Source: Bacteroidia bacterium (GTDB taxonomy: Bacteria; Bacteroidota; Bacteroidia; B-17B0; Aurantibacillaceae). From it: a stretch of DNA of 64,000 nucleotides. The notes under the pieces are model-generated. The model had not been told where the DNA came from. It did no database searches and saw nothing but the letters and a program-made list of their open reading frames with translations. This document shows positions 15,896-64,000 of the stretch, in pieces. Within the stretch, counting starts at the first letter, position 1. Each line of letters starts with the position of its first letter. The DNA is taken from contig JAEUTN010000001.1 of assembly GCA_016787895.1 (NCBI GenBank), forward strand, positions 62,001 to 126,000. Direction: 5' to 3'. The position numbers and the translations under genes were made by a program.

Positions 15896-17239
15896 TTGCT
15901 TTTAAGTGCACTCGAAGGCAACAGTTACCATTTATTCATCATTTTAACAGTTGGTGTAATTTATCAAATACATCGGCCAGGTTTCTCTACCTTTGAGCTT
16001 ATAAAGTTTCTCCGCGAAAATATTTCCATAGCTTTAAATTCCATTAAAGCCAACCGTTTGAGGGCGATTATCACCATGCTCATCATCAGCATTGGCATTA
16101 CCGCTCTGGTGGGCATACTTTCAGCCATTGACGCGATAAAAAACGGTATCAACGAAAACTTTTCGGGCATGGGGGCTAATACCTTTACCCTTCAAAACGG
16201 AGACGCTAACGTGAGAATAGGCCATCGCGGGCGAAAATCAAAAGCCAGAAAAGAAATTACCTATCAGGAGGCCCTTCGGTTTAAGGACAATTACCGGTTT
16301 CCTGTAGTTTCAGCGGTTTCAACCGAGGCCAGTTTTTCGGCCCGCTTAAAATACGGCAACAAAAAAACCAATCCCAACATTGAGGTCACCGGAGCCGATG
16401 AAAATTACCTGCTTACGGCAGGCTATGAATTGGAAAAGGGCAGAAATTTTAACGCCAACGAAATCAGAGGAGGAAGCGCTCTGGTGCTGATTGGTAAAGA
16501 CGTTGAGAAAGCCTTGTTCGACAGTAAAACCGATGCCCTGGATAAATTTGTAAAAATTGGGGGCATGCGGTATAAGGTGGTTGGGGTTTTAAAATCCAAA
16601 GGCAACAGCGGGGGATTCAGCGGGGACAAACTCTGTATTATCCCCCTGGGCACCGCGCGCATGTATTTTTCTAAACCCAATATGAATTATACCATTCATG
16701 TGCTATGTAAAGATTATTCCAAACTCAATACCTTTCTTGAAGAGGCCAAGGGGGTATTCAGAAAAGTGAGAAAAATTCCTCCCGGGGAGGAAAATGACTT
16801 TGAAGTGGTGCGCTCGGATAATTTAGCCTCTATGTTATTAAAAGACATTTCCATGGTCACCACTGGAGCTACCGTTATTGGTTTGATTACCTTGCTTGGA
16901 GCAGCCATTGGCTTAATGAACATCATGCTGGTAAGTGTTACTGAACGTACCCGCGAAATAGGCATACGCAAAGCCATGGGCGCTACTCAAAACATCATTA
17001 AATACCAGTTTTTAATTGAAAGTACTGTTATCTGTGTGATTGGTGGATTGTTCGGCATTTTGTTCGGCATTATTATCGGCAACCTCATCAGTTTGGCACT
17101 CGACACCGGTTTTTTTATTCCCTGGTTCTGGATTATTTCAGGGGTAATCATTTGTATTTCGGTTGGATTGCTCAGCGGTTACCTTCCTGCACGCAGAGCC
17201 TCCCGCCTCGACCCGATTGATAGTTTGAGGTTTGAGTGA
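15896..17239 (+). CDS. ABC transporter permease, MacB/FtsX type (start uncertain)
   Basis: The C-terminal 400 residues are a clear MacB-like permease: a first membrane helix (ITMLIISIGITALVGILSA), a periplasmic MacB core domain (about 85-290), and three C-terminal helices of the FtsX domain with the conserved loop VTERTREIGIRKAMGATQ. Such permeases pair with an ATPase subunit in export or mechanotransmission across the inner membrane; no ATPase gene is adjacent. The start is a problem. No in-frame ATG exists before 16076, inside helix 1. The family-like sequence begins near 16001 (IKFLRENISIALNSIKANRL). Options are TTG 15896, a non-standard ATA at 16001, TTG 16058 or ATG 16076. A consensus-like -7 element (15988-15995) sits just before the family-like part. 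Confidence 0.82.
   Translation: MLLSALEGNSYHLFIILTVGVIYQIHRPGFSTFELIKFLRENISIALNSIKANRLRAIITMLIISIGITALVGILSAIDAIKNGINENFSGMGANTFTLQNGDANVRIGHRGRKSKARKEITYQEALRFKDNYRFPVVSAVSTEASFSARLKYGNKKTNPNIEVTGADENYLLTAGYELEKGRNFNANEIRGGSALVLIGKDVEKALFDSKTDALDKFVKIGGMRYKVVGVLKSKGNSGGFSGDKLCIIPLGTARMYFSKPNMNYTIHVLCKDYSKLNTFLEEAKGVFRKVRKIPPGEENDFEVVRSDNLASMLLKDISMVTTGATVIGLITLLGAAIGLMNIMLVSVTERTREIGIRKAMGATQNIIKYQFLIESTVICVIGGLFGILFGIIIGNLISLALDTGFFIPWFWIISGVIICISVGLLSGYLPARRASRLDPIDSLRFE
15988..15995 (+). promoter_or_regulatory. TACCTTTG, candidate -7 element inside the 5' part of the ABC permease frame
   Basis: Exact match to TAnnTTTG located just before the codons where sequence resembling the permease family begins. 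If used, transcription would start near 16002 and the permease would need a start codon downstream of it. No -33 TTG at 19 bp is visible. Confidence 0.35.
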
Positions 17240-17246
17240 AGGGTTT

Positions 17247-17333
17247 ACGATGGTTCAAGATTGTTCAAGGGTTCAGGATGGTTCAAGGCTGTTCAAAATG
17301 GTTGAATTTTGAATCTTGAATTTTGAATCTTAA
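17247..17333. repeat. Degenerate short repeats GGTTCAAG / TTGAATCTT
   Basis: The gap between two convergent genes is filled by imperfect direct copies of GATGGTTCAAG-like units followed by three copies of TTGAATCTT-like units. A related but weaker series (CCTTGAACC-like) occurs at about 40190-40250. These look like slippage-prone low-complexity spacers; no hairpin with a T-run is seen. Confidence 0.6.
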
Positions 17334-17335
17334 AT

Positions 17336-19273
17336 CTATTCCCCAAAGCTCACCGCAATGATCTGAATTTTTCTTTCGGATGCCGCAAACGGACTGTAAA
17401 CGGAATTTCTTTTGTCCTTAAAATCATCGCTTGTTTTGCTGCCCGGCAATTCCCCTATGTCCTCTTCCACAAATTCCAATTGTGGCACTTGTCCTGCTGC
17501 AGCTTGTGTGAAAGATTTAAAATACCCCTCCCGTGTTTGTTCAAAGTAATTTCTTAAACTGTTTATTCTTCGTTTGGCCAGTTTTTGGTTGTAATTGGTG
17601 CTGGCTAAAGGACTGCAATAGCCTTTTAAGGTAATCCTTACGCGTTCTCCGTTTTTAAGCACCTGCACCAGTAAGTCTGAAAATTTTTCAAGGTTTTCAA
17701 ATCCGGCATCCAGACTATCGCTGAAAAAACTTTCAATTTTCTCCAGGGCTTTTTCCTTTTCCTCGCCTTTGTAGCCTGAGGTAAAGGACTGCTGGTATTT
17801 AGGATAAAGTGTTTTGTAAGCCGAGTAGGTTTCAGGATAGGTTTTTGTAGTTACGAGCAATTCGGTTCTTGGTTCGGGCTCATCGTTGTGAAAGTAAAGG
17901 GTCAGCGGTACCAGGAGTTTCATTTTCTCTTTCTGTAGAAGCACAGAATCAATCTTTACCGGTTCTTTCTCTTTTTCAATCGTGTAAGTATACAAATCGT
18001 TGCAACACGAACTGTTGTTTTCATTATTGGACCCCTTGCGGTTGCTTGACAACCAGGCTTGAGTTGCTTCGCGGTTTTTAACGTAATACACTTCGTTGTA
18101 ACCGCTGTTGATGGGGTATCCTGCATTTTTTACTTCGGTAAATTCTCCTTCTTTGAATGCACTTTTAAAAACATCAAACGCTCCAAAATTTTTATGTGCC
18201 GTGCTGCTGAAATACAAGACCTGTTCGCCCGAATCAAAATAAGGTGTAATTTCATTTTCATTGGTATTAATGAATTGGCCACTGTGTTTAATGTTCGAAA
18301 AACTGCCGTCCTGATTTGCCTCGGCGTACCAAATGTCCATGCCCCCCTGCCCGCCTTTTCGATTAGAAGAAAAAAACAAAACCTCTTTCCCATTTAAATT
18401 GGAAAAGGAAGGATGAGTTGAGGATACGCCCTTCAGGTTGATACTGTCTCCAAGTTTTGTGGCCATTTGCCACTTGTTGTTTTCGAACCGGGATTGGTAC
18501 AATTCGCAGGTGTAGTCAGTAGCATTGATGTTTTTGCAACGGGAAAAGACCATGCGTTTGCCGCTTTGATCAAAACTTGCATTGGCGTTGTGAAGGTAAG
18601 TGGCATTTACTGCGGTGTCCAAAGCATAAGGCTTTGGCTTTTTGGAGTTGCTCTTTTCAAAAAGATAAATCTTACTCAAGGACACTTCGTTCTCCTGAGT
18701 TTTGGCCCCGGTTCGGAGGCTTGAAAAATAAAATCCTTTTTCGCCCTGCCCTGGCGCGTATTCACTGTAACGGGTGTTGATGCTGGTGTCGAGTTTTTCT
18801 ACCTGAATGGGCAAAGGGTTTTTCATCCAGATGGCGGCCAGATCGCAGACTTCCATTTCCATCCTGGCTTTTTGTTTGTATTCGGGCAAATCCTTTTTCA
18901 GTTTGAGCCGGTAAAATTTAGCGAACCATTTTCCGGCCTCCTTGTAATTCATTTGCTGCTTGTAAAGTTGTCCCATCCAATACACCCCCATCGGGTATTT
19001 TTTTCCTCTTTGGTTCAGCACCTTTTGGTACAAATACAAAGCGGTTTCGGTTTCCATGTTCAGGCGAGCAGCTTCGGCATAAGCGTAACACACCTTCAGG
19101 TTGCTGCTGTCGCGACGGTAGAGTTTACGGTACTGGTGCACGGCCTCCTCATAATTCTTTTCACGCAAAGCCTCTGTCCCCATTTTATTGAGTTTGTAAT
19201 TGCCCTGTGCGTTCAAACCGGAATGCAGGCAACCATACAAAAATACAATGCTAATAACAAGGACTTTTTTCAT
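17336..19273 (-). CDS. PorE-like TPR / beta-propeller / OmpA-family protein
   Basis: The ATG at 19273 (signal peptide MKKVLVISIVFLYGCLHS) gives 645 residues. Domains in order: TPR-like helices (about 25-165, NYEEAVHQYRKLYRRDSSNL), a PD40/WD40-like propeller (about 170-430, with repeats such as SGKRMVFSRC, NGKEVLFFSSNRKGGQGG and SGEQVLYFSST), a linker, and a C-terminal OmpA peptidoglycan-binding domain (about 540-645, VRITLKGYCSPLASTNYNQK ... LAKRRINSLRNYFEQ). This order matches PorE, a T9SS envelope component that links the machine to peptidoglycan. The ATG lies one base after the stop codon of the upstream PorP/SprF-like gene, so the two are almost certainly translated from one mRNA. It could also be one of several paralogues serving a particular substrate. 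Confidence 0.88.
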   Translation of the reverse strand: MKKVLVISIVFLYGCLHSGLNAQGNYKLNKMGTEALREKNYEEAVHQYRKLYRRDSSNLKVCYAYAEAARLNMETETALYLYQKVLNQRGKKYPMGVYWMGQLYKQQMNYKEAGKWFAKFYRLKLKKDLPEYKQKARMEMEVCDLAAIWMKNPLPIQVEKLDTSINTRYSEYAPGQGEKGFYFSSLRTGAKTQENEVSLSKIYLFEKSNSKKPKPYALDTAVNATYLHNANASFDQSGKRMVFSRCKNINATDYTCELYQSRFENNKWQMATKLGDSINLKGVSSTHPSFSNLNGKEVLFFSSNRKGGQGGMDIWYAEANQDGSFSNIKHSGQFINTNENEITPYFDSGEQVLYFSSTAHKNFGAFDVFKSAFKEGEFTEVKNAGYPINSGYNEVYYVKNREATQAWLSSNRKGSNNENNSSCCNDLYTYTIEKEKEPVKIDSVLLQKEKMKLLVPLTLYFHNDEPEPRTELLVTTKTYPETYSAYKTLYPKYQQSFTSGYKGEEKEKALEKIESFFSDSLDAGFENLEKFSDLLVQVLKNGERVRITLKGYCSPLASTNYNQKLAKRRINSLRNYFEQTREGYFKSFTQAAAGQVPQLEFVEEDIGELPGSKTSDDFKDKRNSVYSPFAASERKIQIIAVSFGE

Positions 19274-30506: not shown

Positions 30507-30672
30507 AGTTAGTTGGTTTTGTGTGTTTGCCTACTCTGTTCACCGATTTTTGGCACCCTCGGTTAGTGTTTGATCACTATGGGTAAATATAATAAAAAAA
30601 CATAATTATTCCAAGTAGTCGAAAAATATTTATATGTCATGCCAATTCTATCTAGGGGTAAAACACATAAAA

Positions 30673-52848: not shown

Positions 52849-54150
52849 TTATTTGAACCATTTTTGATTGAGTGTCATGAGTGCTTCCTGCACTGTAATT
52901 CGTTTTCCGTTGTTATACGCCACCACAAAGGCGCTTTTGATGCCGTTGTTGCGGATGGTTTGTTCCCTTTTCTCTCTGGCTGTTTTATAGGCGCCAAATG
53001 AGCCGTACATAAACTTCGAATACCCTTCCTGAAATTCACTGCGTATGTTTTCTTTTAGTTTAAACTTACGCTTCAGGCTTTGCGCGTTGACTTTTGCATT
53101 ATTGAAGGCGCCGATTTGAACAGCAAAAATAGTGGTGTTTTGCTGCTGTTTTGCCTGTTGCTCCAGTTTTTCCTGAGTTTTAGTTTCCTTTGTATTTTCA
53201 GCGTTGGTGGTTACGACAGTGTTTGATTTTGGGGCTTCCGTTTTCGTTTCCGCCTGAGCCGGCGCGGAGGTGTTATCAAAACGCAGGGTTTGTTCGGGGG
53301 CAAGCGTTTTTTTACTTTGATTATGTTCCAGGTAAGAGTATTCCCCTTTTAAAAGAAGGGACTCGCAATTCGATTCACACACTAAAACGTAACTCACTTT
53401 CAACTCTTCTTTTTCAGGAACACTTACCCATACAAATTTGATTTTACCATCGGCAATTGAAAACGAACTGCCGTCGGTTTTTAGCGCTTTGGCACTGAAG
53501 CCCGGCTCCAAATTATCGCTGTATCTTGCAAATCCTTTGGTGATGCCTTTTTTGATGGTTAATTCTATCTTTTTTTCATTATATGTTTTACCATCCTGCA
53601 CGTTTCTCAACACTTCAATAATTCCCGCGGGCTCTGAATGCGATGATTCTGCCACAGTACCGGTGGTTTGAGCAGGAGTATCAGTGGTTGTAGCCGACTC
53701 ACTCAAACCGGTTTCACCTTCATTAAGCACTATCATTTCTGTGGCCTGCAGGTCAACGCTTTTTTTGTCGTTGTTATCAATATAATAGAAGCTGGCTCCC
53801 ATCAGCTTTTTACCATGTGCAACCGAACCGGGTGTGATGCCAACACTCAAAATCAATTCCTCCTCCTCGGGCAATTCATTCCAAGTCCATACCATTTGGC
53901 CTTCCTTCACCGAAAAAGAAGCTTCAGCATTTTCAATTTCCCTGGGAACAAAACCATTTGGAAGGTCCATTTGAAAGGTAGCAAAACCGCTAAGTTGGGC
54001 TTTGGAGATTTTGATTTCAAGTACCGTCTCCTGATCAATTACCAAACTGGATGGGAAATTGGTGCTGATTTTTGGTTCTCCGTTCGGGGCAAGGAAAGGC
54101 AGGAGAAAAAACAGCATGCTGTTAAACAGAACAAGCAAGGGGTATATCAT
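52849..54150 (-). CDS. Envelope protein with SPOR-like C-terminal domain
   Basis: 433 residues. The N-terminal part has a signal peptide (MIYPLLVLFNSMLFFLLPFL) and two related beta domains (about 25-150 and 180-305) with paired phrases ATFQMDLPNGFVPREIENAE and FARYSDNLEPGFSAKALKTD, each followed by a WNELPEEEEL- or WVSVPEKEEL-like turn. A Thr/Ala/Gln-rich linker (about 310-345) leads to a SPOR-like domain (about 350-433, IFAVQIGAFNNAKVNAQSL ... GSFGAYKTAREKREQTI). The same tail closes the downstream gene. I do not recognise a named family. The pair is probably one operon (35 bp between stop and start). Confidence 0.8.
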   Translation of the reverse strand: MIYPLLVLFNSMLFFLLPFLAPNGEPKISTNFPSSLVIDQETVLEIKISKAQLSGFATFQMDLPNGFVPREIENAEASFSVKEGQMVWTWNELPEEEELILSVGITPGSVAHGKKLMGASFYYIDNNDKKSVDLQATEMIVLNEGETGLSESATTTDTPAQTTGTVAESSHSEPAGIIEVLRNVQDGKTYNEKKIELTIKKGITKGFARYSDNLEPGFSAKALKTDGSSFSIADGKIKFVWVSVPEKEELKVSYVLVCESNCESLLLKGEYSYLEHNQSKKTLAPEQTLRFDNTSAPAQAETKTEAPKSNTVVTTNAENTKETKTQEKLEQQAKQQQNTTIFAVQIGAFNNAKVNAQSLKRKFKLKENIRSEFQEGYSKFMYGSFGAYKTAREKREQTIRNNGIKSAFVVAYNNGKRITVQEALMTLNQKWFK

Positions 54151-54224
54151 GCCTCTAAAATAGTGGCATTACCGCCCGCTAAAGCCCGGGCAGTCTTTCA
54201 TTTAGTAACAGCATTCTGTTAACA

Positions 54225-55013
54225 TTACAAACTGGAGGTTCGGCCACCATCCACCGGCAAATTAATGCCTGTGATATAAGCTGCGGCGGGACTGGCCAGG
54301 AAAGCGACCGCGTTCGCAATTTCAGCAGCTTCGGCAAAGCGTTTCATAGGAATTTCATGAAGCATTTCGTGTTTTACCGCATCGGTACTGGTGTTGTTTT
54401 TTTGCGCTTTGTTTTCAAGTATAGCGCTTAATCGCTGGGTAGCTGTAGCACCGGGTAACACGTTGTTCACCGTTATGCCAAATTCGGCCAGTTCATTTGC
54501 CATGGTTTTGGCCCAGTTACCAACGGCCGCCCGTATGGTGTTGCTCACCCCCAAATTGGGCAAAGCTTGTTTCACAGAGGTGGAAATCACGTTGATGATA
54601 CGTCCGTACCCTGTGTTTTTCATGCCTTCAATACAGGCTTGCGCTAAAATATGGTTGCAAATAAGATGATTGCTGAAAGCCGTTACAAACTCTTCGGTGC
54701 GCGCTTTTACAATCGGGCCAGCAGGTGGCCCCCCGGTATTGTTCACCAAAATGTGCACGGGACCATTCCTGCGCACAAAGGCGTTCACCAATTCTTCGAG
54801 TTGTTTGGGGTTCGAAAAATCAGCGCAGAGGTATGAGTGCAGTTGAGAACCGTTATTGGGCAATTCGGCTTTTACCTTTTTAAGACTGTCCTCGTTTCGG
54901 GCCAGTAAAGTAACATTGGCGCCAAGTTTGGCCAACTCCATGGCAGAAGCTTTTCCTATGCCTTGTGTGCTGCCGCATACCAGGGCGTTTTTGGTTTTCA
55001 GATCAAGATTCAT
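54225..55013 (-). CDS. SDR-family oxidoreductase, catalytic Tyr/Lys apparently missing
   Basis: 262 residues of the short-chain dehydrogenase family: TGxxxGxG-like start VCGSTQGIGKASAMELAKLG (about 11-30), the strand motif NNTGGPPAG (about 91-99) and PGATATQRLSAI. At the active site, where the classical family has Ser ... Tyr-x-x-x-Lys, the sequence reads ISTSVKQALPNLGVSNTIRA; Tyr is replaced by Ser and Lys by Arg. The family that includes cd05344-type 3-oxoacyl-ACP reductase-like proteins shows this same loss, so it is not a broken copy but a subfamily trait. It overlaps recX by 11 bp at its start. Cytoplasmic; substrate unknown. Confidence 0.85.
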   Translation of the reverse strand: MNLDLKTKNALVCGSTQGIGKASAMELAKLGANVTLLARNEDSLKKVKAELPNNGSQLHSYLCADFSNPKQLEELVNAFVRRNGPVHILVNNTGGPPAGPIVKARTEEFVTAFSNHLICNHILAQACIEGMKNTGYGRIINVISTSVKQALPNLGVSNTIRAAVGNWAKTMANELAEFGITVNNVLPGATATQRLSAILENKAQKNNTSTDAVKHEMLHEIPMKRFAEAAEIANAVAFLASPAAAYITGINLPVDGGRTSSL

Positions 55014-55497
55014 GTTCGTTAAAATTACGGTTTATTTGTTCCATCACGGCCTCGGGCTCAAAGCCTTTGCTCAGCAAATACCGGTACACTGAAGCCTTTA
55101 CACGCAGTGTTGGCCGGCTGCCGGAGGTTTTTATTCTTTTAAGGGTGAGTTCGCGCAAAGTGGTCTGGTAGTCTTTTTCATCCAGACTTTCCAAAGCCTT
55201 TTGAATGTTGGGTGCTGAGACCCTGTGTTTTTTTAATTCGGTTTTGATTTTAACGCGGCCCCAGTGTTTCATCCTGAACTTTCCGCCGGCAAAGGCCTTT
55301 GCGAAACGTTCTTCGTTGAGGTAGTTGTCTGAAATGAGTTCTGAAAGAATTTGGGCAATTTCGTTTTCTTTAAGGCCGGCCTTTTGTAACTTCAGTCGAA
55401 CCTCGTAATGCGAACGCTCCTGATAGGCGCACCAGAGTTTAATTTTCTCGAGTTCCTGTTTTGGAGAGCTGTTTAATTGCCTTTCTTTGTAATCCAC
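55003..55497 (-). CDS. recX: Regulatory protein RecX
   Basis: 164 residues, all-helical three-repeat pattern of the RecX family: IKLWCAYQERSHYEVRLKLQ, LISDNYLNEERFAKAFAGGK, GRVKIKTELKKHRVSAPNIQ and VKASVYRYLLSKGFEPEAVM. RecX binds RecA filaments and limits or modulates homologous recombination in the cytoplasm. recA is not in the window. Its 3' end overlaps the start of the SDR gene, suggesting co-transcription, and it is divergent from the methyltransferase gene. Confidence 0.9.
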   Translation of the reverse strand: MDYKERQLNSSPKQELEKIKLWCAYQERSHYEVRLKLQKAGLKENEIAQILSELISDNYLNEERFAKAFAGGKFRMKHWGRVKIKTELKKHRVSAPNIQKALESLDEKDYQTTLRELTLKRIKTSGSRPTLRVKASVYRYLLSKGFEPEAVMEQINRNFNEHES

Positions 55498-55533
55498 AAA
55501 ATTCTGAACAAAGAAACTGTTTAATTCCTTAAG

Positions 55534-56868
55534 ATGCCACGCCTGTCACCACAATTTTTAAACAGTCTGAAACAGCTTGAACTGCCCGATGTGGACGGTT
55601 TTGTGGAGGTTCATGCTTCAGGAGAACAAATCACTTCCATTCGATACAATCCGTTTAAACCCTGTGTTCCTGAATTCGATACGGGAGACAGAATTCCCTG
55701 GACCCAGGGGGGTTTTTATCTCTCCGGGCGCCCATCTTTTACCCGCGACCCGCTGTTTCAGGCGGGCTGTTATTATGTTCAGGAAGCCGGCAGTATGTTT
55801 TTGGAATATGCTCTCAGCCAAACGCTCGATTTAAGTCAGGATGTGAACATCCTCGACCTTTGCGCGGCCCCCGGAGGAAAAAGCACCATACTGAACTCCA
55901 TCATGAGTAAGGAAAGTTTGCTGGTTTCAAATGAACTCATTCAAAACCGCTCCCAAACCCTGGCTTATAACCTCAGTAAATGGGGACAAGCCAATACTTT
56001 GGTGACCAACAACGCGCCTGAACAATTTGAACTCTTGCCGGGCTTTTTTGATGTTTTGGTTGTAGACGCGCCTTGCAGTGGCAGCGGTTTGTTTCGAAAA
56101 CAAGAGGAGGCCATGGAGGAATGGAGCCCTGAGCACGTGAACGCCTGCTCCGTAAGGCAAAAAAATATTTTGGATTCAGCCTTAAAGAGCCTTAAAGAGG
56201 GTGGGCTTTTGTTTTACAGCACCTGTTCGTATTCCAAAGAGGAAAATGAAGACATTGTTGACTGGATGGTACAGGAGATGGGCATGGAGGTAAAAACCCT
56301 GAAAGTGGACCCCAACTGGGGCATCGTGCAAAACGAGAAAGGCTTGAGGTTTTACCCGCATTTACTGAGAAGTGAAGGCTTTTTTTGTTCCGTTTTGATT
56401 AAACAGGCACCATCACCGCAAAAAAAACAGGGCTATAAACTGAAAAACACGGTTTCAGAACAGGAAAAAAAAGTGCTTAGCACCTATGCCAAAACCGAGG
56501 GGCTGGAATTGCTTAAAAAAAATGAAAAGTTTTACCTTTTGAACAAGGCCTGTTTTGCGTTTTTGCAAGTACCGGTTCAGGGATTTTATTTCAGAAAAGC
56601 GGGGGTGTGTTTAGGTGAGTTGAAACATCAGGACCTTATTCCCGAACAGGAGCTGGCCTTGTCGTCCTATATTTCCGCTCAGGTTCAAAAGGCCGAATTG
56701 ACAAAGGATGCAGCCCTGGCCTATCTGAAAAAAGAAGTGTTTTCTTTATCCGGCGAACACAAAGGCCTGCTGTGTTTTACTTACCAAAATCATGGTATAG
56801 GATGGGGAAAAGTTCTACCCAACCGTATTAACAATTACCTGCCTCCTCAGCTCAGGATTTTAAAATAA
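55534..56868 (+). CDS. RsmF-like RNA (cytosine-5-)-methyltransferase with C-terminal PUA-like region
   Basis: 444 residues. The NOL1/NOP2/Sun catalytic core is clear: SAM-binding LDLCAAPGGKSTILNSI (about 107-123), VVDAPCSGSGLFRKQ (about 174-188) containing one catalytic Cys, and YSTCSYSKEENEDIV (about 229-243) containing the second. The C-terminal quarter (from about 320) resembles the extra domains of RsmF/YebU-type rRNA methyltransferases that modify 16S rRNA. Cytoplasmic. The exact target cytosine cannot be read from sequence. It is divergent from recX and precedes the tRNA operon. Confidence 0.9.
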   Translation: MPRLSPQFLNSLKQLELPDVDGFVEVHASGEQITSIRYNPFKPCVPEFDTGDRIPWTQGGFYLSGRPSFTRDPLFQAGCYYVQEAGSMFLEYALSQTLDLSQDVNILDLCAAPGGKSTILNSIMSKESLLVSNELIQNRSQTLAYNLSKWGQANTLVTNNAPEQFELLPGFFDVLVVDAPCSGSGLFRKQEEAMEEWSPEHVNACSVRQKNILDSALKSLKEGGLLFYSTCSYSKEENEDIVDWMVQEMGMEVKTLKVDPNWGIVQNEKGLRFYPHLLRSEGFFCSVLIKQAPSPQKKQGYKLKNTVSEQEKKVLSTYAKTEGLELLKKNEKFYLLNKACFAFLQVPVQGFYFRKAGVCLGELKHQDLIPEQELALSSYISAQVQKAELTKDAALAYLKKEVFSLSGEHKGLLCFTYQNHGIGWGKVLPNRINNYLPPQLRILK

Positions 56869-56919
56869 ATTCCATCTCCGGATTTTTGATAAGAATTCGA
56901 AATAATTTGGCACGATTAT

Positions 56920-56950
56920 TTTGTGCAAATGAAAAGTATTGTTACCTTTG
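56920..56950 (+). promoter_or_regulatory. Full Bacteroidota promoter for the tRNA-tuf operon
   Basis: TTTG at 56920-56923, a 19-bp spacer, then TACCTTTG at 56943-56950 match the -33/-7 consensus of the major sigma factor of Bacteroidota exactly. Transcription should start near 56957, about 36 bases before tRNA-Thr. It probably drives the four tRNAs and possibly tuf. Confidence 0.8.
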
Positions 56951-56992
56951 CCATCCCTTTAAAAGGGGTAGTTCTTTCAAATCAGGTAAAAT

Positions 56993-57065
56993 GCCGAAGT
57001 AGCTCAGCTGGTAGAGCAGCTGATTTGTAATCAGCTGGTCGGGGGTTCGAGTCCCTTCTTCGGCT
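56993..57065 (+). tRNA. tRNA-Thr (anticodon UGU)
   Basis: Folds into a normal cloverleaf: acceptor GCCGAAG / CTTCGGC, D-arm AGCTCAGCTGGTAGAGC, anticodon stem GCTGA / TCAGC with loop TTTGTAA (anticodon TGT), and T-arm GGGGTTCGAGTCCC. CCA is not encoded. First tRNA of the operon. Confidence 0.95.
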
Positions 57066-57075
57066 CTTTTAGCAA

Positions 57076-57156
57076 GGGGATATACCAGAGTGGCCAAATG
57101 GGACAGACTGTAAATCTGTTGTTTCGACTTCGGAGGTTCGAATCCTCCTGTCCCCA
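57076..57156 (+). tRNA. tRNA-Tyr (anticodon GUA)
   Basis: 81 bases with a long variable arm (class II). Acceptor GGGGATA / TGTCCCC, anticodon stem ACAGA / TCTGT with loop CTGTAAA (anticodon GTA), T-arm GGAGGTTCGAATCCTCC. Discriminator A. Confidence 0.95.
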
Positions 57157-57160
57157 CATG

Positions 57161-57201
57161 GGTCGCCTGCACCGATAGTCGTCGGGATGGCCAAAGCGAC
57201 C
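57161..57201 (+). repeat. Palindrome-containing fragment, possibly tRNA-Tyr-derived
   Basis: Outer inverted repeat GGTCGC / GCGACC encloses a degenerate copy of the palindrome (CACCGATAGTCGTCGGGA) followed by TGGCCAAA, the same 8-mer as in the D-loop of the adjacent tRNA-Tyr. The match to tRNA-Tyr is short, so this is the weakest of the set. Confidence 0.4.
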
Positions 57202-57257
57202 GGAGAATAGAGCTTCATTGTCCTTTTTTGCTTTATGCTTAAAAGAGGATGATAAAA

Positions 57258-57330
57258 GCGGAAGTAGCTCAATTGGTAGAGCTCCAGCCTTCCAAGCTGG
57301 AGGTTGCGGGTTCGAGACCCGTCTTCCGCT
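57258..57330 (+). tRNA. tRNA-Gly (anticodon UCC)
   Basis: Acceptor GCGGAAG / CTTCCGC, anticodon stem CCAGC / GCTGG with loop CTTCCAA (anticodon TCC), T-arm CGGGTTCGAGACCCG. 73 bases, no encoded CCA. Confidence 0.95.
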
Positions 57331-57343
57331 CAAATGACCGAAT

Positions 57344-57396
57344 GACGGGTCGAGAAGTTTATCCCGACGCATGTCGGGAAGACCCGTCTTCCGCTC
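57344..57396 (+). repeat. Broken tRNA-Gly 3' copy with palindrome in the T-loop
   Basis: GACGGGTCGAGA, then TCCCGACGCATGTCGGGA (57362-57379), then AGACCCGTCTTCCGCTC, which repeats the 3' end of the tRNA-Gly just upstream. The outer 8-bp stem GACGGGTC / GACCCGTC corresponds to the T-stem. The palindrome has replaced or entered the T-loop. Confidence 0.7.
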
Positions 57397-57634
57397 GATA
57401 AGTAAAATCACAAATAGAGGATTTGTGATGAAATTGTGAAGTTGAAACGTGCGTTCATACGCCTGGCTGTGAAAACAGGAGAGGCGGCAAAAACATGAGG
57501 ATTTGCAGACGCGATCCAAGGGTTTTTGAAAAGTCCCAAACTGAGGGACTTTTGGCGTGTGGAGAGGGCTGTTCTTTGTTAAAATGAGATTTTTGAGCAG
57601 ATAAGGCCTTAATAAGCCAAGTCGGACAAAAAGA
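57397..57634. other. Spacer of the tRNA operon with two perfect hairpins
   Basis: No gene is seen. Hairpins: ATCACAAAT-agagg-ATTTGTGAT (57407-57429) and AAAAGTCCC-aaactga-GGGACTTTT (57529-57553, 9-bp stem). The second resembles a terminator stem; both may be RNA-processing sites if the operon is one transcript. Confidence 0.55.
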
Positions 57635-57692
57635 ATAAGCTGTTGTAGCTCTCCCGATAGCTATCGGGAGGTAGAGCACTTCAGCGAACAAC
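57635..57692 (+). repeat. tRNA-Thr-like fragment with palindrome in the D-loop, copy 1
   Basis: 58 bp: GCTGTTGTAGCTC (acceptor and D-stem 5' side of tRNA-Thr(GGU)), the 18-bp palindrome TCCCGATAGCTATCGGGA, GGTAGAGCACTTC, then CAGCGAACAAC. It repeats in tandem directly before the true tRNA gene. The normal gene has AGT in place of the palindrome. Confidence 0.8.
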
Positions 57693-57750
57693 ATAAGCTG
57701 TTGTAGCTCTCCCGATAGCTATCGGGAGGTAGAGCACTTCAGCAAACAAC
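57693..57750 (+). repeat. tRNA-Thr-like fragment with palindrome in the D-loop, copy 2
   Basis: Identical to copy 1 except one base (CAGCA instead of CAGCG). It abuts the true tRNA-Thr gene at 57755. The 5' GTTGT and 3' ACAAC ends can pair, so a minimal acceptor-plus-D-arm structure with the palindrome as an extra hairpin is possible. Confidence 0.8.
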
Positions 57751-57754
57751 ATAA

Positions 57755-57826
<72 letters not shown>

Positions 57827-57882
57827 CAATTAGGCGTAAGGCTAATTAAATAATAAAATATACAATTAAATAAAAAACAACT

Positions 57883-59070
57883 ATGGCAAAAGAAAAATTC
57901 GACCGTTCCAAACCACACGTAAACATTGGAACTATTGGTCACGTAGATCACGGGAAAACCACTTTGACCGCTGCTATCACTACTGTGTTAGCCAGCAAAG
58001 GTCTTGCTGAAGTGCGTGATTTCTCCTCAATTGACAACGCTCCTGAAGAAAAAGAGCGTGGTATTACCATCAATACTTCACACGTGGAGTACCAAACAGA
58101 AAAACGTCACTACGCGCACGTTGACTGCCCGGGCCACGCTGACTATGTAAAAAACATGGTTACCGGTGCTGCGCAGATGGACGGTGCTATCCTTGTAGTA
58201 GCCGCAACTGACGGACCTATGCCACAAACCCGCGAGCACATCCTTTTGGCTCGTCAGGTAGGTGTACCTCGTATCGTTGTGTTCATGAACAAAGTGGACA
58301 TGGTAGAAGATGCTGAGTTATTGGATCTGGTTGAAATGGAAATCCGCGAATTGCTTACTTTCTACAAGTTCGACGGTGACAATACCCCTATCATCCGTGG
58401 TTCTGCTTTGGGTGGTTTGAACAACGACGCTAAATGGGTTCCAAAAATTATGGAATTGATGGATGCAGTAGATACTTATATTCCATTGCCTCCACGCGAT
58501 AAGGAAAAACCTTTCCTGATGCCTGTTGAGGACGTGTTCACCATTACCGGTCGTGGTACTGTAGCTACAGGACGTATCGAAACCGGTGTGATCAACACTG
58601 CTGATAACGTTGAAATCATTGGTATGGGTGCTGAGAAATTAACCTCAACCGTTACCGGTGTGGAAATGTTCCGTAAGATTCTTGACTACGGTGAGGCTGG
58701 AGATAACGTAGGTTTATTGCTTCGTGGTGTTGAGAAAAAAGACATCAAACGTGGAATGGTAATCTGCAAACCAGGTTCAGTAAAACCACACACCAAGTTC
58801 AAAGCTGAGGTGTATATCCTGAAAAAAGAGGAAGGTGGACGTCACACTCCATTCCAAAACAAATACCGTCCTCAGTTCTACTTCCGTACAACTGACGTGA
58901 CAGGAGAGATCAGCCTGGAAGCCGGTCGCGAAATGGTGTTACCTGGAGATAACGTAACCATTGAAGTGAATCTGATTAACGCTATCGCCATGGATAAAGG
59001 TTTACGTTTCGCTATCCGCGAAGGTGGACGTACCGTTGGTGCTGGTCAGGTGACTGAAATTTTAGACTAA
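57883..59070 (+). CDS. tuf: Elongation factor Tu
   Basis: 395 residues, normal EF-Tu length. G-motifs: GHVDHGKTT (19-27), DCPGH (81-85) and NKVD (136-139); domain 2/3 phrases [13 protein letters not shown] and [19 protein letters not shown] are typical. It delivers aminoacyl-tRNA to the ribosome with GTP. The gene follows tRNA-Thr(GGU) as in many bacteria, and is followed by a strong hairpin. The ATG at 57883 begins [20 protein letters not shown]. Confidence 0.99.
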
Positions 59071-59088
59071 GCCATAGTCATAAATATA

Positions 59089-59125
59089 GGCGAAATGGCT
59101 CTCAAACCTGAGAAGCCATTTTGCC
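59089..59125 (+). terminator. Strong hairpin after tuf (terminator or attenuator)
   Basis: 16-bp stem with one bulge and a 4-base loop, starting GGCGAAATGGC and ending GCCATTTTGCC. No T-run follows directly, so it may be a processing or Rho-linked site rather than an intrinsic terminator. Confidence 0.6.
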
Positions 59126-59200
59126 ATTTATAGATGGTTGTGTTTTTAGTTAATATTTCATAAAAGATAGAGAAGCGGATCAAAGATCAACTTCCTACAA

Positions 59201-59271
59201 ACGGGCGTAGTTCAAGGGTAGAATTACGGTCTCCAAAACCGCAGATGGGAGTTCGAATCTCTCCGCCCGTG
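59201..59271 (+). tRNA. tRNA-Trp (anticodon CCA)
   Basis: Acceptor ACGGGCG / CGCCCGT, D-arm GTTCAAGGGTAGAAT, anticodon stem ACGGT / ACCGC with loop CTCCAAA (anticodon CCA), T-arm GGGAGTTCGAATCTCTC. It lies between tuf and secE, a common arrangement. Confidence 0.95.
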
Positions 59272-59302
59272 CGGATTAAAATTGGGAGGAGCAAGGAAGA
59301 TA

Positions 59303-59349
59303 GCAGATGGGAGTTCATCCCGATAGCTATCGGGACTCTCCACCCATGC
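59303..59349 (+). repeat. Broken tRNA-Trp 3' copy with palindrome in the T-loop
   Basis: GCAGATGGGAGTTC (identical to tRNA-Trp), the palindrome TCCCGATAGCTATCGGGA (59318-59335), then CTCTCCACCCATGC versus CTCTCCGCCCGTGC in the true gene. The palindrome replaces the GAAT of the T-loop. The copy lies 32 bp after tRNA-Trp. Confidence 0.8.
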
Positions 59350-59432
59350 ATGTTTAAAGTTTTGATTTTCAAAACATTAAATTGAACTGATTAAATAAAG
59401 AATAGAAGGATAACACCTCAGAAAATAGTAAC

Positions 59433-59627
59433 ATGAGCAAAATTGGCACCTACCTTTCAGAAACAAAAAACGAACTGGTTAACAAAGTAAGCTGGCCCAC
59501 CTGGCCCGAATTGCAAAGCAGCGCAATTGTTGTGATGGTTTCATCCGTGATTATTGCATTGCTGGTATTTGGAATGGACCAGATTTTTGACATTCTAATG
59601 AGACAAGCCTACGATATTCTTAAGTAA
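59433..59627 (+). CDS. secE: Preprotein translocase subunit SecE
   Basis: 64 residues: an N-terminal amphipathic helix (YLSETKNELVNKVSWPTW) and one membrane helix (about 29-53, SAIVVMVSSVIIALLVFG). This is the short single-helix SecE of most non-proteobacterial species, part of the SecYEG protein-export channel. It precedes nusG as in most bacteria. Confidence 0.95.
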   Translation: MSKIGTYLSETKNELVNKVSWPTWPELQSSAIVVMVSSVIIALLVFGMDQIFDILMRQAYDILK

Positions 59628-59647
59628 GATTTAAAACCGTGCAGCAA

Positions 59648-60214
59648 ATGACCGAACCAATAAAAGCCGATACGATCTCAAAAAAATGGTATGTCGTGCG
59701 TGCCATCAGTGGGCAGGAAAAAAAGGTGAAACAGTACATCGAGATGGAAATTTCACGCCTGAAACTGACCGATTACGTTTCGCAGGTATTAATCCCTACT
59801 GAAAAAGTAATTCAAATCCGCAACGGTAAAAAAACCACCAAAGAACGTTCTTTTTATCCGGGATATGTATTGATTGAAGCCGTATTGGCCGGTGAAATTC
59901 CTCACCTGATCAAAAACATCACCGGAGTGATTGGTTTTTTGGGCGAAAGCAAGGGCGGCAACCCCGTTCCCATGCGTTTGAGTGAGGTGAACCGGATTCT
60001 GGGTAAAGTGGACGAACTTGTTGAAAGTGAAGGCACTATGATGAATAATTACACGGTTGGTGAATCCGTGAAAGTGATCAATGGTCCATTCAATGGCTTT
60101 AACGGCGTAATTGAAGAGGTGATGGAGGACAAAAAGAAAATTAAAGTTACCGTTAAGATTTTCGGCCGTAAAACACCGGTTGAATTGAATTTCGGAGAAG
60201 TAGAACTGGAATAA
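59648..60214 (+). CDS. nusG: Transcription termination/antitermination factor NusG
   Basis: 188 residues from ATG 59648 (a GTG at 59639 is also in frame). NGN domain WYVVRAISGQEKKVKQYIEM, FYPGYVLIEAVL and a C-terminal KOW domain ESVKVINGPFNGFNGVIEEV. NusG binds RNA polymerase to suppress pausing and link Rho or the ribosome. Compared with E. coli NusG there is an insertion between the domains (EAVLAGEIPHLIKNITGVIG), common in Bacteroidota. It is 20 bp after secE. Confidence 0.95.
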   Translation: MTEPIKADTISKKWYVVRAISGQEKKVKQYIEMEISRLKLTDYVSQVLIPTEKVIQIRNGKKTTKERSFYPGYVLIEAVLAGEIPHLIKNITGVIGFLGESKGGNPVPMRLSEVNRILGKVDELVESEGTMMNNYTVGESVKVINGPFNGFNGVIEEVMEDKKKIKVTVKIFGRKTPVELNFGEVELE

Positions 60215-60376
60215 GGCTTCAAGTCCGCTCAGCCTGACCTTAGGGTGAAACGCAGCGGAAAAAAATAGAATTAACGCATTGAAGGTAGAGGGGGATGAAG
60301 AGGTGCTTTGCTGCTTCCAACTCAAAGCTCGGAACCCGAATACCAACAATAACAACAAATAAATAAAACATAAACA
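60215..60376 (+). promoter_or_regulatory. Leader of the rplK operon
   Basis: 162 bp upstream of rplK with an imperfect inverted repeat CCGCT ... AGCGG (about 60227-60259). In other bacteria ribosomal protein L1 binds a structured leader before rplK-rplA to repress translation; this region is where such a site would lie, but I cannot confirm a match to the L1 site by eye. Confidence 0.25.
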
Positions 60377-60814
60377 ATGGCAAAAGAGTTATCAGCAATT
60401 GTAAAGTTGCAAATCAAAGGTGGAGCTGCTAACCCCTCGCCTCCCATTGGACCAGCCTTAGGCGCCAAAGGTGTAAACATCATGGAGTTCTGCAAACAGT
60501 TTAATGCAAGAACCCAGGAACAAGCCGGTAAAGTATTGCCGGTGATCATCAATGTTTATACCGACAAGTCGTTTGATTTTGTGATCAAACGTCCGCCTGT
60601 GGCCATTCAAATTATGGAGGCTGCTAAAATTAAAGCGGGATCCGCAACCAGCAATCGTAAGAAAGTGGGCTCACTCAACTGGGAACAAGTTCGTAAGATC
60701 GCTGAGGACAAAATTGTTGACATGAACTGTTTTACAATTGAGTCGGCCATGAACATGGTAGCAGGAACCGCCCGCAGCATGGGGGTAACAGTAACCGGTG
60801 AGAAACCTCACTAA
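60377..60814 (+). CDS. rplK: 50S ribosomal protein L11
   Basis: 145 residues. N-terminal [20 protein letters not shown] and the rRNA-binding C-terminal domain with TVTGEKPH are typical. L11 forms the GTPase-associated centre with 23S rRNA and is needed for RelA-type stringent sensing. First gene of the rplK-rplA pair. Confidence 0.98.
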
Positions 60815-60882
60815 TTCAATCAATTAACCAAGGCGGCTTAAACCCCGTTTTAACAAACAAACAAAAAAAACAACACTTACAA

Positions 60883-61575
60883 ATGGCAACGTTGACTAAA
60901 AAAAGAAAGACTGCAGTATCGAAATTCGATGCCAGCAAGTCTTACTCAGTTGCAGATGCCTCAAAAATTGTGAAGGACATTACCAGCACAAAATTTGACG
61001 CTTCTGTGGATCTTGCGATCCGTTTAGGAGTTGATCCACGTAAGGCGAACCAAATGGTGCGCGGAACGGTAACCTTACCACACGGTACAGGTAAAACCTT
61101 ACGCGTTCTGGCCCTGGTTACTCCTGATAAGGAGGCCGAAGCCAAAGCCGCAGGCGCTGATTACGTAGGATTGGACGAGTATATCGAAAAAATCAAAGGC
61201 GGATGGACCGATGTGGATGTGATCATCACCATGCCATCCGTTATGGGTAAAGTAGGCGCTTTAGGCCGTGTGTTAGGTCCCCGTGGCCTTATGCCGAATC
61301 CTAAAACCGGTACCGTAACCATGGATGTAGCGAAAGCCGTTCAGGACTCCAAAGGCGGAAAAATTGATTTTAAGGTAGACAAAGCGGGTATTATTCACGC
61401 CGCAATCGGAAAAGTATCGTTCGACGCGAACAAAATTTCTGAAAACGCGAGTGAATTGCTGCAAACTATCCTCAAATTAAAACCTTCCAGCGCAAAAGGT
61501 ACCTATGTAAAATCGGTAACAATGAGCAGCACCATGAGTCCCGGTGTAGCCATTGACGCCAAATTATTCACCTAA
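60883..61575 (+). CDS. rplA: 50S ribosomal protein L1
   Basis: 230 residues with the L1 signature [18 protein letters not shown] near residue 130 and [20 protein letters not shown]. It forms the L1 stalk that helps release E-site tRNA and is the likely autoregulator of the rplK-rplA unit. It follows rplK by 68 bp and precedes rplJ by 14 bp. Confidence 0.98.
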
Positions 61576-61589
61576 AAACCTGCTAAACA

Positions 61590-62090
61590 ATGAACAAAAC
61601 CGAAAAGACACAGGTCATTGAGGAGTTGGTAGAGAAATTAAACGCCAACGACAAGATCTATTTAGCAGATTGTTCGACTTTAACCGTTGAAAAAGTGAAC
61701 TTGTTCCGCAAACAGTGCTTCGAGAAAAAAGTATCGGTAACTGTTGTAAAGAACACTTTACTTAAAAAAGCTATTGAGCGCGCAAACGACAGCAAACTGG
61801 CTGAGTTGATTCCTGCATTAAAAGGAGAAACCGCTTTGATTTTCACCGAAACCTCAAACGTTCCGGCCAAGATCATTAAGGATTTCCGCAAAGGAAACAG
61901 CAAACCAACATTAAAAGCTGCCTATGTAGAACAAATGGTTTTTATTGGCGACGAGCAACTGGATGCCTTAGCTGCCCTTAAATCGAAAAACGAACTCATC
62001 GCCGACGTGATTATGCTGTTGCAGTCACCAATCAAACGCGTATTGGGTGGTTTGGAGAACAAAGGCGGAGAAGACAAAACTGCTGCTTAA
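61590..62090 (+). CDS. rplJ: 50S ribosomal protein L10
   Basis: 166 residues. L10 anchors the L7/L12 stalk; the N-terminal domain (EELVEKLNANDKIYLADCST, VTVVKNTLLKKAIER) binds rRNA and the C-terminal helix binds L7/L12 dimers. The very short upstream gap (14 bp) leaves no room for the L10-binding leader seen in other bacteria, so regulation probably acts through rplA or the rplL-rpoB spacer. Confidence 0.97.
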   Translation: MNKTEKTQVIEELVEKLNANDKIYLADCSTLTVEKVNLFRKQCFEKKVSVTVVKNTLLKKAIERANDSKLAELIPALKGETALIFTETSNVPAKIIKDFRKGNSKPTLKAAYVEQMVFIGDEQLDALAALKSKNELIADVIMLLQSPIKRVLGGLENKGGEDKTAA

Positions 62091-62156
62091 ACTGTTGAAA
62101 AACAATCAACTAAATCAAAACAATTAAATTAAAAATTACAATTAAAAATTAACAAA

Positions 62157-62528
62157 ATGGCTGATATTAAAGCAATAGCTGAACAATTAGTAAGCTTAAC
62201 AGTAAAAGAAGTACAGGACTTAGCAAAAGTTCTGAAAGACGAATATGGAATTGAACCGGCAGCTGCTGCAGTAGTGGTAGCAGGTGGTGGTGGTGGTGGA
62301 GAAGCCGCTGCTGCTAAAACTTCATTCGACGTAATGTTGCTTGAAGCTGGTGCTGCGAAATTAGGCGTGGTAAAAGTTGTAAAAGACCTTACCGGATTGG
62401 GCCTTAAAGAAGCGAAAGACCTTGTTGACGGTGCTCCAAAAGCCGTTAAAGAAGGCGTTGGCAAAGAAGAAGCTGAAGCCATTAAAAAGGCTTTGGAAGA
62501 AGCTGGTGCTAAAGCAGAGATTAAGTAA
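62157..62528 (+). CDS. rplL: 50S ribosomal protein L7/L12
   Basis: 123 residues with the Ala-rich hinge ([20 protein letters not shown], about 36-55) and the conserved factor-binding domain [40 protein letters not shown]. It is the mobile stalk that recruits translation GTPases. It ends 26 bp before a hairpin that separates it from rpoB. Confidence 0.98.
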
Positions 62529-62553
62529 TCCTGCACCAAACACCTTGAAAAAG

Positions 62554-62585
62554 GCCCTCTTCACTTTGGGAGAGGGCACTTTTTC
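62554..62585 (+). terminator. Hairpin between rplL and rpoB (attenuator)
   Basis: GCCCTCT / AGAGGGC, 7-bp stem with a 10-base loop, followed by ACTTTTT. In many bacteria partial termination here sets the ratio of L7/L12 to RNA polymerase; same position, so the same role is inferred. Confidence 0.7.
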
Positions 62586-62651
62586 CTGTTTTGAGACCAA
62601 AACAGTGTTCTTTAAAGTCAATATTGTATAAACCAACATATCCCGATACCC

Positions 62652-64000
62652 TTGGCTGCAAGTACAAAAATCCAAAAACGAGTGAACTTCTCGTCAAACA
62701 AGTTCCCTGTTGAATACCCAGATTTTCTGGATATCCAGGTAAAATCGTTCCAAGACTTTTTTCAACTCGAAACAACACCTGAAAACCGTAAAAAAGAAGG
62801 GTTATTCAAAGTGTTCGCCGAGAACTTCCCCATCTCCGACGCACGCAACAACTTTGTGCTCGAATTCAAGGATTATTACATCGATCCGCCCCGCTACTCT
62901 CTCGACGAGTGTATTGAGCGCGGTCTCACCTATTCCGTACCTCTGAAGGCCAAGTTGTACCTTTATTGTACCGACCCTGAACACGAAGATTTTGAACCCA
63001 TCATGCAGGACGTGTACCTGGGAACCATCCCGTACATGACCCCAAAAGGTTCATTCATCATAAACGGCGCTGAACGTGTTATTGTATCGCAGCTCCACCG
63101 CTCACCCGGTGTGTTTTTCGGACAAAGCCGCCACGCCAACGGAACCAAACTATACAGCGCCCGCGTTATTCCATTCAAAGGCAGCTGGATTGAGTTTGCT
63201 ACCGACATCAACAACGTGATGTACGCTTACATCGACCGTAAGAAAAAATTACCGGTAACTACCCTGCTCCGTGCCATTGGTTTCGAAAGCGATAAACAAA
63301 TCCTCGAGATTTTTGGATTGGCCGACGAAATTAAAGTGAGCAAAGCCGGCTTAAAGCGCGAAGTGGGCCGCAAACTGGCCGCACGTGTGCTCAAAACCTG
63401 GCTGGAAGACTTCGTTGACGAAGATACCGGAGAGGTTGTTTCCATTGAGCGTAACGAGGTGATCCTCGACCGCGAAACCATACTCGAAGACGATCACATT
63501 GATACCATCGTTGACGCCGGCGTGAAATCCATCATCCTGCACAAACAGGACGTTAATACCGCCGATTTCGCCATTATTTACAACACCCTTCAAAAAGACT
63601 CCACCAATTCGGAAAAAGAAGCGATTGAGTTCATCTACCGTTTGCTGCGTAATGCAGAACCACCGGATGAGGAAACCGCTCGCGGGGTGATTGACAAATT
63701 GTTCTTCTCTGATAAGCGGTATGACTTAGGAGAAGTAGGACGTTACCGCATCAACAAAAAATTAGGATTAAACATTCCTCCTGAAATTCGTGTATTAACG
63801 AAAGAGGACATGATCCTCATCATTAAATACCTCATCGAACTCATCAACTCTAAAACGGATGTGGACGATATCGACCACTTGTCTAACCGTCGTGTTAGAA
63901 CCGTGGGTGAGCAATTGTACTCTCAGTTCGGTGTTGGATTGGCCCGTATGGCCCGAACCATCCGTGAGCGTATGAACGTTCGCGACAACGAGGTGTTTAC
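62652..64000 (+). CDS. rpoB: DNA-directed RNA polymerase subunit beta (C-terminus cut by window edge)
   Basis: The first 449 codons are visible. Start is TTG at 62652 ([15 protein letters not shown]); no in-frame ATG lies upstream in the spacer, and the next in-frame ATG is far inside conserved sequence. The protein shows the normal N-terminal features: YPDFLDVQLQSFQDFFQ-like region, [57 protein letters not shown] and [20 protein letters not shown]. It is the catalytic beta subunit. The TTG start agrees with the family pattern MA-x-x-x-x-IQ-x-RVNF. Confidence 0.97.

Follow-up and report, generated by a model that had tools for sequence, protein, structure and literature searches.

Short palindromes dispersed between genes are known from bacteria as REP or BIME sequences together with RAYT (Y1) transposases, and repeats containing part of a tRNA are known from the tyrT operon of E. 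coli, where the rtT repeats are located downstream of the tRNA gene. The rtT repeats resemble the units analyzed here in being part-tRNA repeats next to a tRNA gene, but they are longer and are not known to have a palindrome replacing a loop or a GIY-YIG gene. REP sequences share with the palindromes described below their short, dispersed and intergenic character, whereas our palindromes are located in the loops of copies of the neighboring tRNA and are linked to GIY-YIG genes. Nuclease genes near tRNAs have been described for T-even phages with their free-standing GIY-YIG homing endonucleases. The GIY-YIG enzyme SegB of phage T6 is encoded beside phage tRNA genes and makes breaks, and a segment with a tRNA is amplified in tandem, in cis as well as in trans, only if SegB with its active site is available (PMC13096335); in phage T4, segB is located between tRNA genes (PMC2988022). 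The small nuclease gene beside tRNAs and the nuclease-dependent tandem amplification seen in the phage make SegB comparable with the elements described here. However, SegB belongs to a phage tRNA cluster and the reported T6 repeat unit holds a full-length tRNA plus segB, whereas our elements reside in bacterial chromosomes and contain a partial copy of the tRNA with a hairpin in it. The unit in the DNA under study has no ORF. Fungal mitochondrial genomes with many GIY-YIG and LAGLIDADG ORFs contain truncated gene copies beside intact genes; there, protein genes are copied, and the passages considered show no systematic replacement of tRNA loops by hairpins (PMC4162613).

In this study, we analyzed a window of 64,000 nucleotides, i.e. 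the whole stretch of DNA presented above, in which two tandem 58-bp units precede tRNA-Thr(GGU). These units probably belong to a family of small elements occupying tRNA genes, in which they would be ORF-less, i.e. miniature or decayed, forms. The coordinates of all features are given in Table 1. As an earlier note had described, the two units are alike except for one base and lead into the tRNA gene, and in both of them AGT of the D-loop is exchanged for a palindrome while the D-stem GCTC/GAGC is retained. They are 98% identical with a single G/A difference, match the tRNA from its first base onward, and run on the same strand as the adjacent intact gene, from which the second unit is separated by ATAA and after which tuf follows. 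On the left side of the 18-bp palindrome 17 nt are identical to the intact gene and on its right side 13 nt, which would be sufficient for short-homology repair and short for RecA. The hairpin arm in the Thr copy has a length of 10 compared to a mean of 4.4 after shuffling, and 0 of 200 shuffles reached it. An Rfam search at this locus returned intact tRNAs only. The GTTGT/ACAAC pairing named as possible in the earlier note does not close the unit in the predicted RNA fold, which is closed by GCUG/CAGC instead; its z value of about −4 is due to the perfect palindrome, as expected of any perfect palindrome.

Table 1. Thr, Gly and Trp units of the window with their palindromes and neighboring intact tRNA genes.
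Feature	Position	Strand	Composition	Sister species
Intact tRNA-Gly(UCC) next to Gly unit	57258–57331	+		
Gly unit, ORF-less, downstream of tRNA-Gly(UCC)	57332–57397	+	Palindrome (57362–57379), then repeat of the tRNA 3′ 17 nt (57380–57396)	Present
Thr unit 1, 5′ part of tRNA-Thr as far as the anticodon stem (5′ strand)	57635–57692	+	D-loop AGT replaced by palindrome TCCCGATAGCTATCGGGA, then AGCGAACAAC	Absent
Palindrome TCCCGATAGCTATCGGGA, D-loop position of Thr unit 1	57652–57669	.		
Thr unit 2	57693–57750	+	Tandem copy of unit 1, one base changed	Absent
Palindrome TCCCGATAGCTATCGGGA, D-loop position of Thr unit 2	57710–57727	.		
Intact tRNA-Thr(GGU), last tRNA ahead of tuf	57755–57827	+		
Intact tRNA-Trp next to Trp unit	59201–59272	+		
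Trp unit, ORF-less, downstream of tRNA-Trp, about 77 bp	59273–59349	+	3′ half copy (59303–59316 and 59336–59349), T-loop GAAT replaced by palindrome TCCCGATAGCTATCGGGA (59318–59335)	Absent

Comparison with the sister species (G013; over this stretch identical to JALOMJ010000021.1, Prado048) revealed a presence/absence polymorphism with clean empty sites for both the Thr pair and the Trp unit. The recent duplication suggested in the earlier note is supported by the clean lack of the 116-bp insertion in the sister species together with the near-identity of the two Thr units. Because most genus members are also without Thr units, their gain in this lineage appears to be the simpler reading compared to a precise loss between direct repeats. 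The tRNA-Gly gene and its unit (57258–57397) form a stretch of about 140 bp that is identical in the sister species, while the sequence right after it diverges; this identity may reflect constraint or gene conversion. At tRNA-Arg(CCG), relatives have neither the ORF nor the copy of the element found in this genome, with the exception of G009, which has ORF-less units. This case was not counted as a strict empty site, as the upstream flanks of the relatives are not clearly syntenic.

These comparisons also bear on the proposal of a tRNA-like mini-RNA binding tRNA enzymes or the synthetase, i.e. a functional small RNA whose D-arm hairpin would lure away RNase P, the synthetase or enzymes of tRNA modification. 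The stable predicted fold would be in line with such a role, as would the gene order, according to which the Thr unit is probably within the transcribed tRNA-tuf operon. However, the fold owes its stability to the palindrome, the unit is absent from the sister species and most of the genus, equivalent units of other tRNAs retain different parts, and there is no sequence conservation beyond the identity to the tRNA and the hairpin, so that we consider this role very unlikely. Comparable copies occur at many tRNAs; some of them retain the 5′ part and others the 3′ part, their hairpins vary, they are gained or lost between close species, and the longer ones enclose a GIY-YIG endonuclease gene. 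A conserved RNA is less compatible with these properties than are remains of mobile elements. An assembly error in a short repeat had been named as a possible refutation, and the assembly is indeed a multi-contig draft; since the units are identical neither to the tRNA nor to one another, and equivalents are found in unrelated assemblies including single-contig genomes, such an artefact is very unlikely as the cause. The copy number of two is that of the assembly.

The Trp unit is related to the Thr units and located 1.6 kb from them. With up to three mismatches the palindrome was found at 3 sites in the window compared to 0 in 100 shuffles, and with up to two mismatches at 40 sites in the 3.6-Mb genome compared to 0 for a reversed-pattern control. 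A family of short dispersed palindromes, one of the characteristics of REP/RAYT systems, is therefore present in this genome, and as some of its members are far from tRNAs, the palindrome also exists outside tRNA-linked elements. Mobilization by a RAYT was rejected: the sole Y1_Tnp gene found in the genome (C2:73142–73486) has no perfect palindrome of 14–24 bases in its locus. Palindromes of a like kind are also found in the loop of terminator-like hairpins (AAAAACCCGT-CCCGAAAGCTTTCGGG-ACGGGTTTTTT; L061 1039–1054, L048 2023–2038), and hence loop replacement extends beyond tRNA copies. Others are located within arrays of the repeat CACGAATTACACGA (L044, L049, L051, L055; G000:C24 at about 862 kb, C11 at about 56 kb, C21 at about 46 kb, C24 at about 331 kb), and at one of these clusters a small GIY-YIG ORF without an adjacent tRNA is located at a distance of about 0.5 kb. 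After tRNA-Tyr, a degenerate palindrome CACCGATAGTCGTCGGGA (57170–57187) lies inside a GGTCGC/GCGACC hairpin and is possibly an old unit. Elsewhere in the window, short tandem repeats with units of 28, 18, 10 and 14/7 bases are clustered at 17239–17337, and the minus strand at 30528–30563 matches the Rfam cis-regulatory RNA DUF805b barely above the gathering score.

Partial tRNA copies are not restricted to these three tRNAs. Local alignment in this genome, whose counts come from searches and from separate stretches, detected a clear sense-strand partial copy within 500 bp of about 14 of the 38 tRNA genes, compared to two or three comparable scores in the antisense control, one of which is due to a real copy in which the anticodon arm is inverted. 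Such an inversion was observed upstream of tRNA-Leu(UAA) (tRNA at 1824–1908 of L008, G000:C24), where the anticodon arm of two partial copies reads AGGATTTTAAGTCCT, which is the intact AGGACTTAAAATCCT in reverse complement and looks like a flipped hairpin. The copies show a polarity: most of those upstream of a tRNA correspond to its 5′ part, and most of those downstream to its 3′ part. Among the tuf-cluster loci of the genus, exact copies of at least 12 nt were found for 16 of 257 tRNAs and for none in antisense, a count from two overlapping collections in which some genomes were entered twice. Nearly all of these 16 copies are interrupted by a palindrome, and several distinct palindrome sequences are represented among them. 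In Pedobacter tuf clusters, copies were found at 0 of 191 tRNAs.

Longer versions of these structures connect the copies to nucleases, since a small GIY-YIG endonuclease ORF separates the broken copy from the intact tRNA. A full member thus has a disarmed or truncated tRNA copy and a small GIY-YIG gene on the tRNA's strand, beside the intact gene of the same tRNA, and in the disarmed copy one loop or arm is usually replaced by a hairpin or palindrome. In this genome, such ORFs are located downstream of tRNA-Leu(UAG) and tRNA-Leu(CAA) and upstream of tRNA-Ser(UGA) and tRNA-Arg(CCG), while the one at tRNA-Ala(GGC) is decayed. Altogether, the genome has 11 small GIY-YIG ORFs, 7 of them within 400 bp of a tRNA gene, and two long ones that by appearance we take to be UvrC-like and DnaQ-like. 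The four other small ORFs have no tRNA linkage and are presumably UPF0213-like, again by appearance; an Rfam search at their loci gave no match. Six aligned tRNA-linked ORFs all score above the cut-off for Pfam GIY-YIG and have the positions Y, Y-x-G, R and E in common. Their nearest solved relatives by sequence are UPF0213, SLX1 and I-TevI (structures 1ywl, 1zg2 and 7cq2 for UPF0213/SLX1). For the Leu-CAA element, the one ORF set tested, dN/dS values of 0.11–0.23 between related loci indicate purifying selection on the ORF. The 58-bp Thr units contain no ORF, and the GIY-YIG search of the genome gave no match on their contig (C11); likewise, no GIY-YIG-bearing form at tRNA-Thr(GGU) was found among the genus loci examined. 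Lacking an ORF, the Thr units are termed ORF-less relatives here and not full members or homing endonuclease genes, and their probable assignment to the GIY-YIG elements is based on the shared architecture and the palindrome.

To cover the class, a profile was built from the six tRNA-linked ORFs; it matches 188 of 295 genomes, and the best-scoring matches were taken as loci. In this set, the ORF is on the tRNA's strand in all 43 tRNA-linked examples, and 34 of them have a partial tRNA copy beyond the ORF, on its far side, compared to 2 with the reverse complement and 0 with a shuffled tRNA. In a second, phylum-wide set, 21 of 26 GIY-YIG genes are beside a tRNA, always on the same strand (21/21), with a far-side copy in 20 cases and none in antisense. 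Both sets together, which include a few near-duplicate loci (L217/L218, L225/L263, L237/L253), give 64/64 for the common strand and 54/64 for the far-side partial copy versus 2/64 for the antisense control. Hairpin arms of at least 7 were observed in 24 of 32 copy regions (2.2 expected), and the hairpins interrupting the copies sit in the D-loop, the anticodon arm or the T-loop; the T-loop TTCG/TTCA is the exact point at which the copy resumes in elements at Ser, His, Asp and Ala tRNAs. The window palindrome TCCCGATAGCTATCGGGA recurs in ORF-bearing elements of other families (L217–L219, L222, L224, L233, L237). Among these, L233 is an upstream form with the layout of the Thr unit and the same D-loop palindrome, plus an ORF. 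In other families, tRNAs for Gly, Leu and Phe are preceded by D-loop forms that have no ORF (L182, L189–L191).

Tandem arrays beside an intact tRNA, with units comprising both the ORF and the tRNA copy, were observed as well, namely 10 units of 457 bp at tRNA-Met (L246), 4 of 404 bp at tRNA-Asp (L248) and 4 of 322 bp at tRNA-Pro (L247), and L289 has ORF-less tandem 97-bp units upstream of tRNA-Arg with a GIY-YIG reading frame downstream. The 58-bp Thr pair is this tandem-array behavior at minimal size. With regard to these results, an ordinary tandem duplication of tRNAs, which is frequent and leaves one copy free to decay, has to be considered; in this case REP-like palindromes would insert into hairpin loops of that copy, and the nuclease genes would be unrelated neighbors. 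Short repeats duplicate easily in tandem, ORF-less copies are common, and the palindromes are dispersed and also present in terminator loops and other repeats, which speaks for such a process; however, it does not explain why nearly every tuf-cluster copy of the genus carries a palindrome, hairpin-free copies being nearly absent there, nor the far-side copy and the invariable common strand in the GIY-YIG/tRNA pairs, and random decay does not predict 5′ parts upstream and 3′ parts downstream. We therefore regard duplication and decay as an unlikely explanation. The downstream 3′ copies further look like attR duplications, as would be left by tyrosine-integrase elements using tRNA genes as attachment sites. 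Such remnants do not agree with 5′ copies upstream of the tRNA or with palindromes in place of a loop, the window units are surrounded by tuf, secE and nusG, the gene repeated in the arrays encodes GIY-YIG, and no integrase gene was recognized by eye among the ORFs at 54000–64000. Due to this anatomy and the nearby genes, attachment-site remnants were rejected as a highly improbable origin.

For the preferred reading, i.e. elements with GIY-YIG nucleases that occupy tRNA genes, the following course of events can be envisaged. The GIY-YIG nuclease would cut an unoccupied tRNA gene within a hairpin loop, and repair from the occupied allele or a neighboring unit would install the element and restore a single intact tRNA. 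In the copy left behind, the hairpin would mark the cut site and probably destroy it. Out-of-register repair between repeated tRNA pieces could multiply the units in tandem, and the Thr pair and other units without an ORF would either be deletion forms or be moved in trans by other GIY-YIG enzymes of the genome. With SegB of phage T6 as experimental precedent, we infer cleavage, protection by the hairpin, homing and mobility in trans for these elements. Against this reading stands the observation that an intact tRNA stays beside the element, and its escape from cutting is not accounted for. A more far-reaching proposal, for and against which we see equal weight, is that Bacteroidota harbor phylum-wide parasites of tRNA genes with a minimal GIY-YIG nuclease cutting at hairpin loops, in which the hairpin-disarmed copy serves both as immune scar and as repair template rebuilding the intact tRNA, the 58-bp unit being the smallest non-autonomous form, moved in trans.

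In the openly accessible literature, no description of the palindrome or of a link between GIY-YIG genes and tRNAs was found for Bacteroidetes, Flavobacterium or Bacteroidota. The tRNA-linked GIY-YIG elements are widespread in Bacteroidota and, as a provisional statement, apparently undescribed, while the wider kind to which we assign them, elements linked to homing endonucleases, is already known. If the interpretation is true, the tiny GIY-YIG ORFs, the dispersed short palindromes and the broken tRNA copies of Bacteroidota genomes would belong to one system, which would be a bacterial counterpart of phage SegB. It would also account for tandem repeats beside tRNA genes and for some odd tRNA-like predictions, and it would open to experiment the question of how a nuclease persists in essential targets of multiple isotypes without death of the host.
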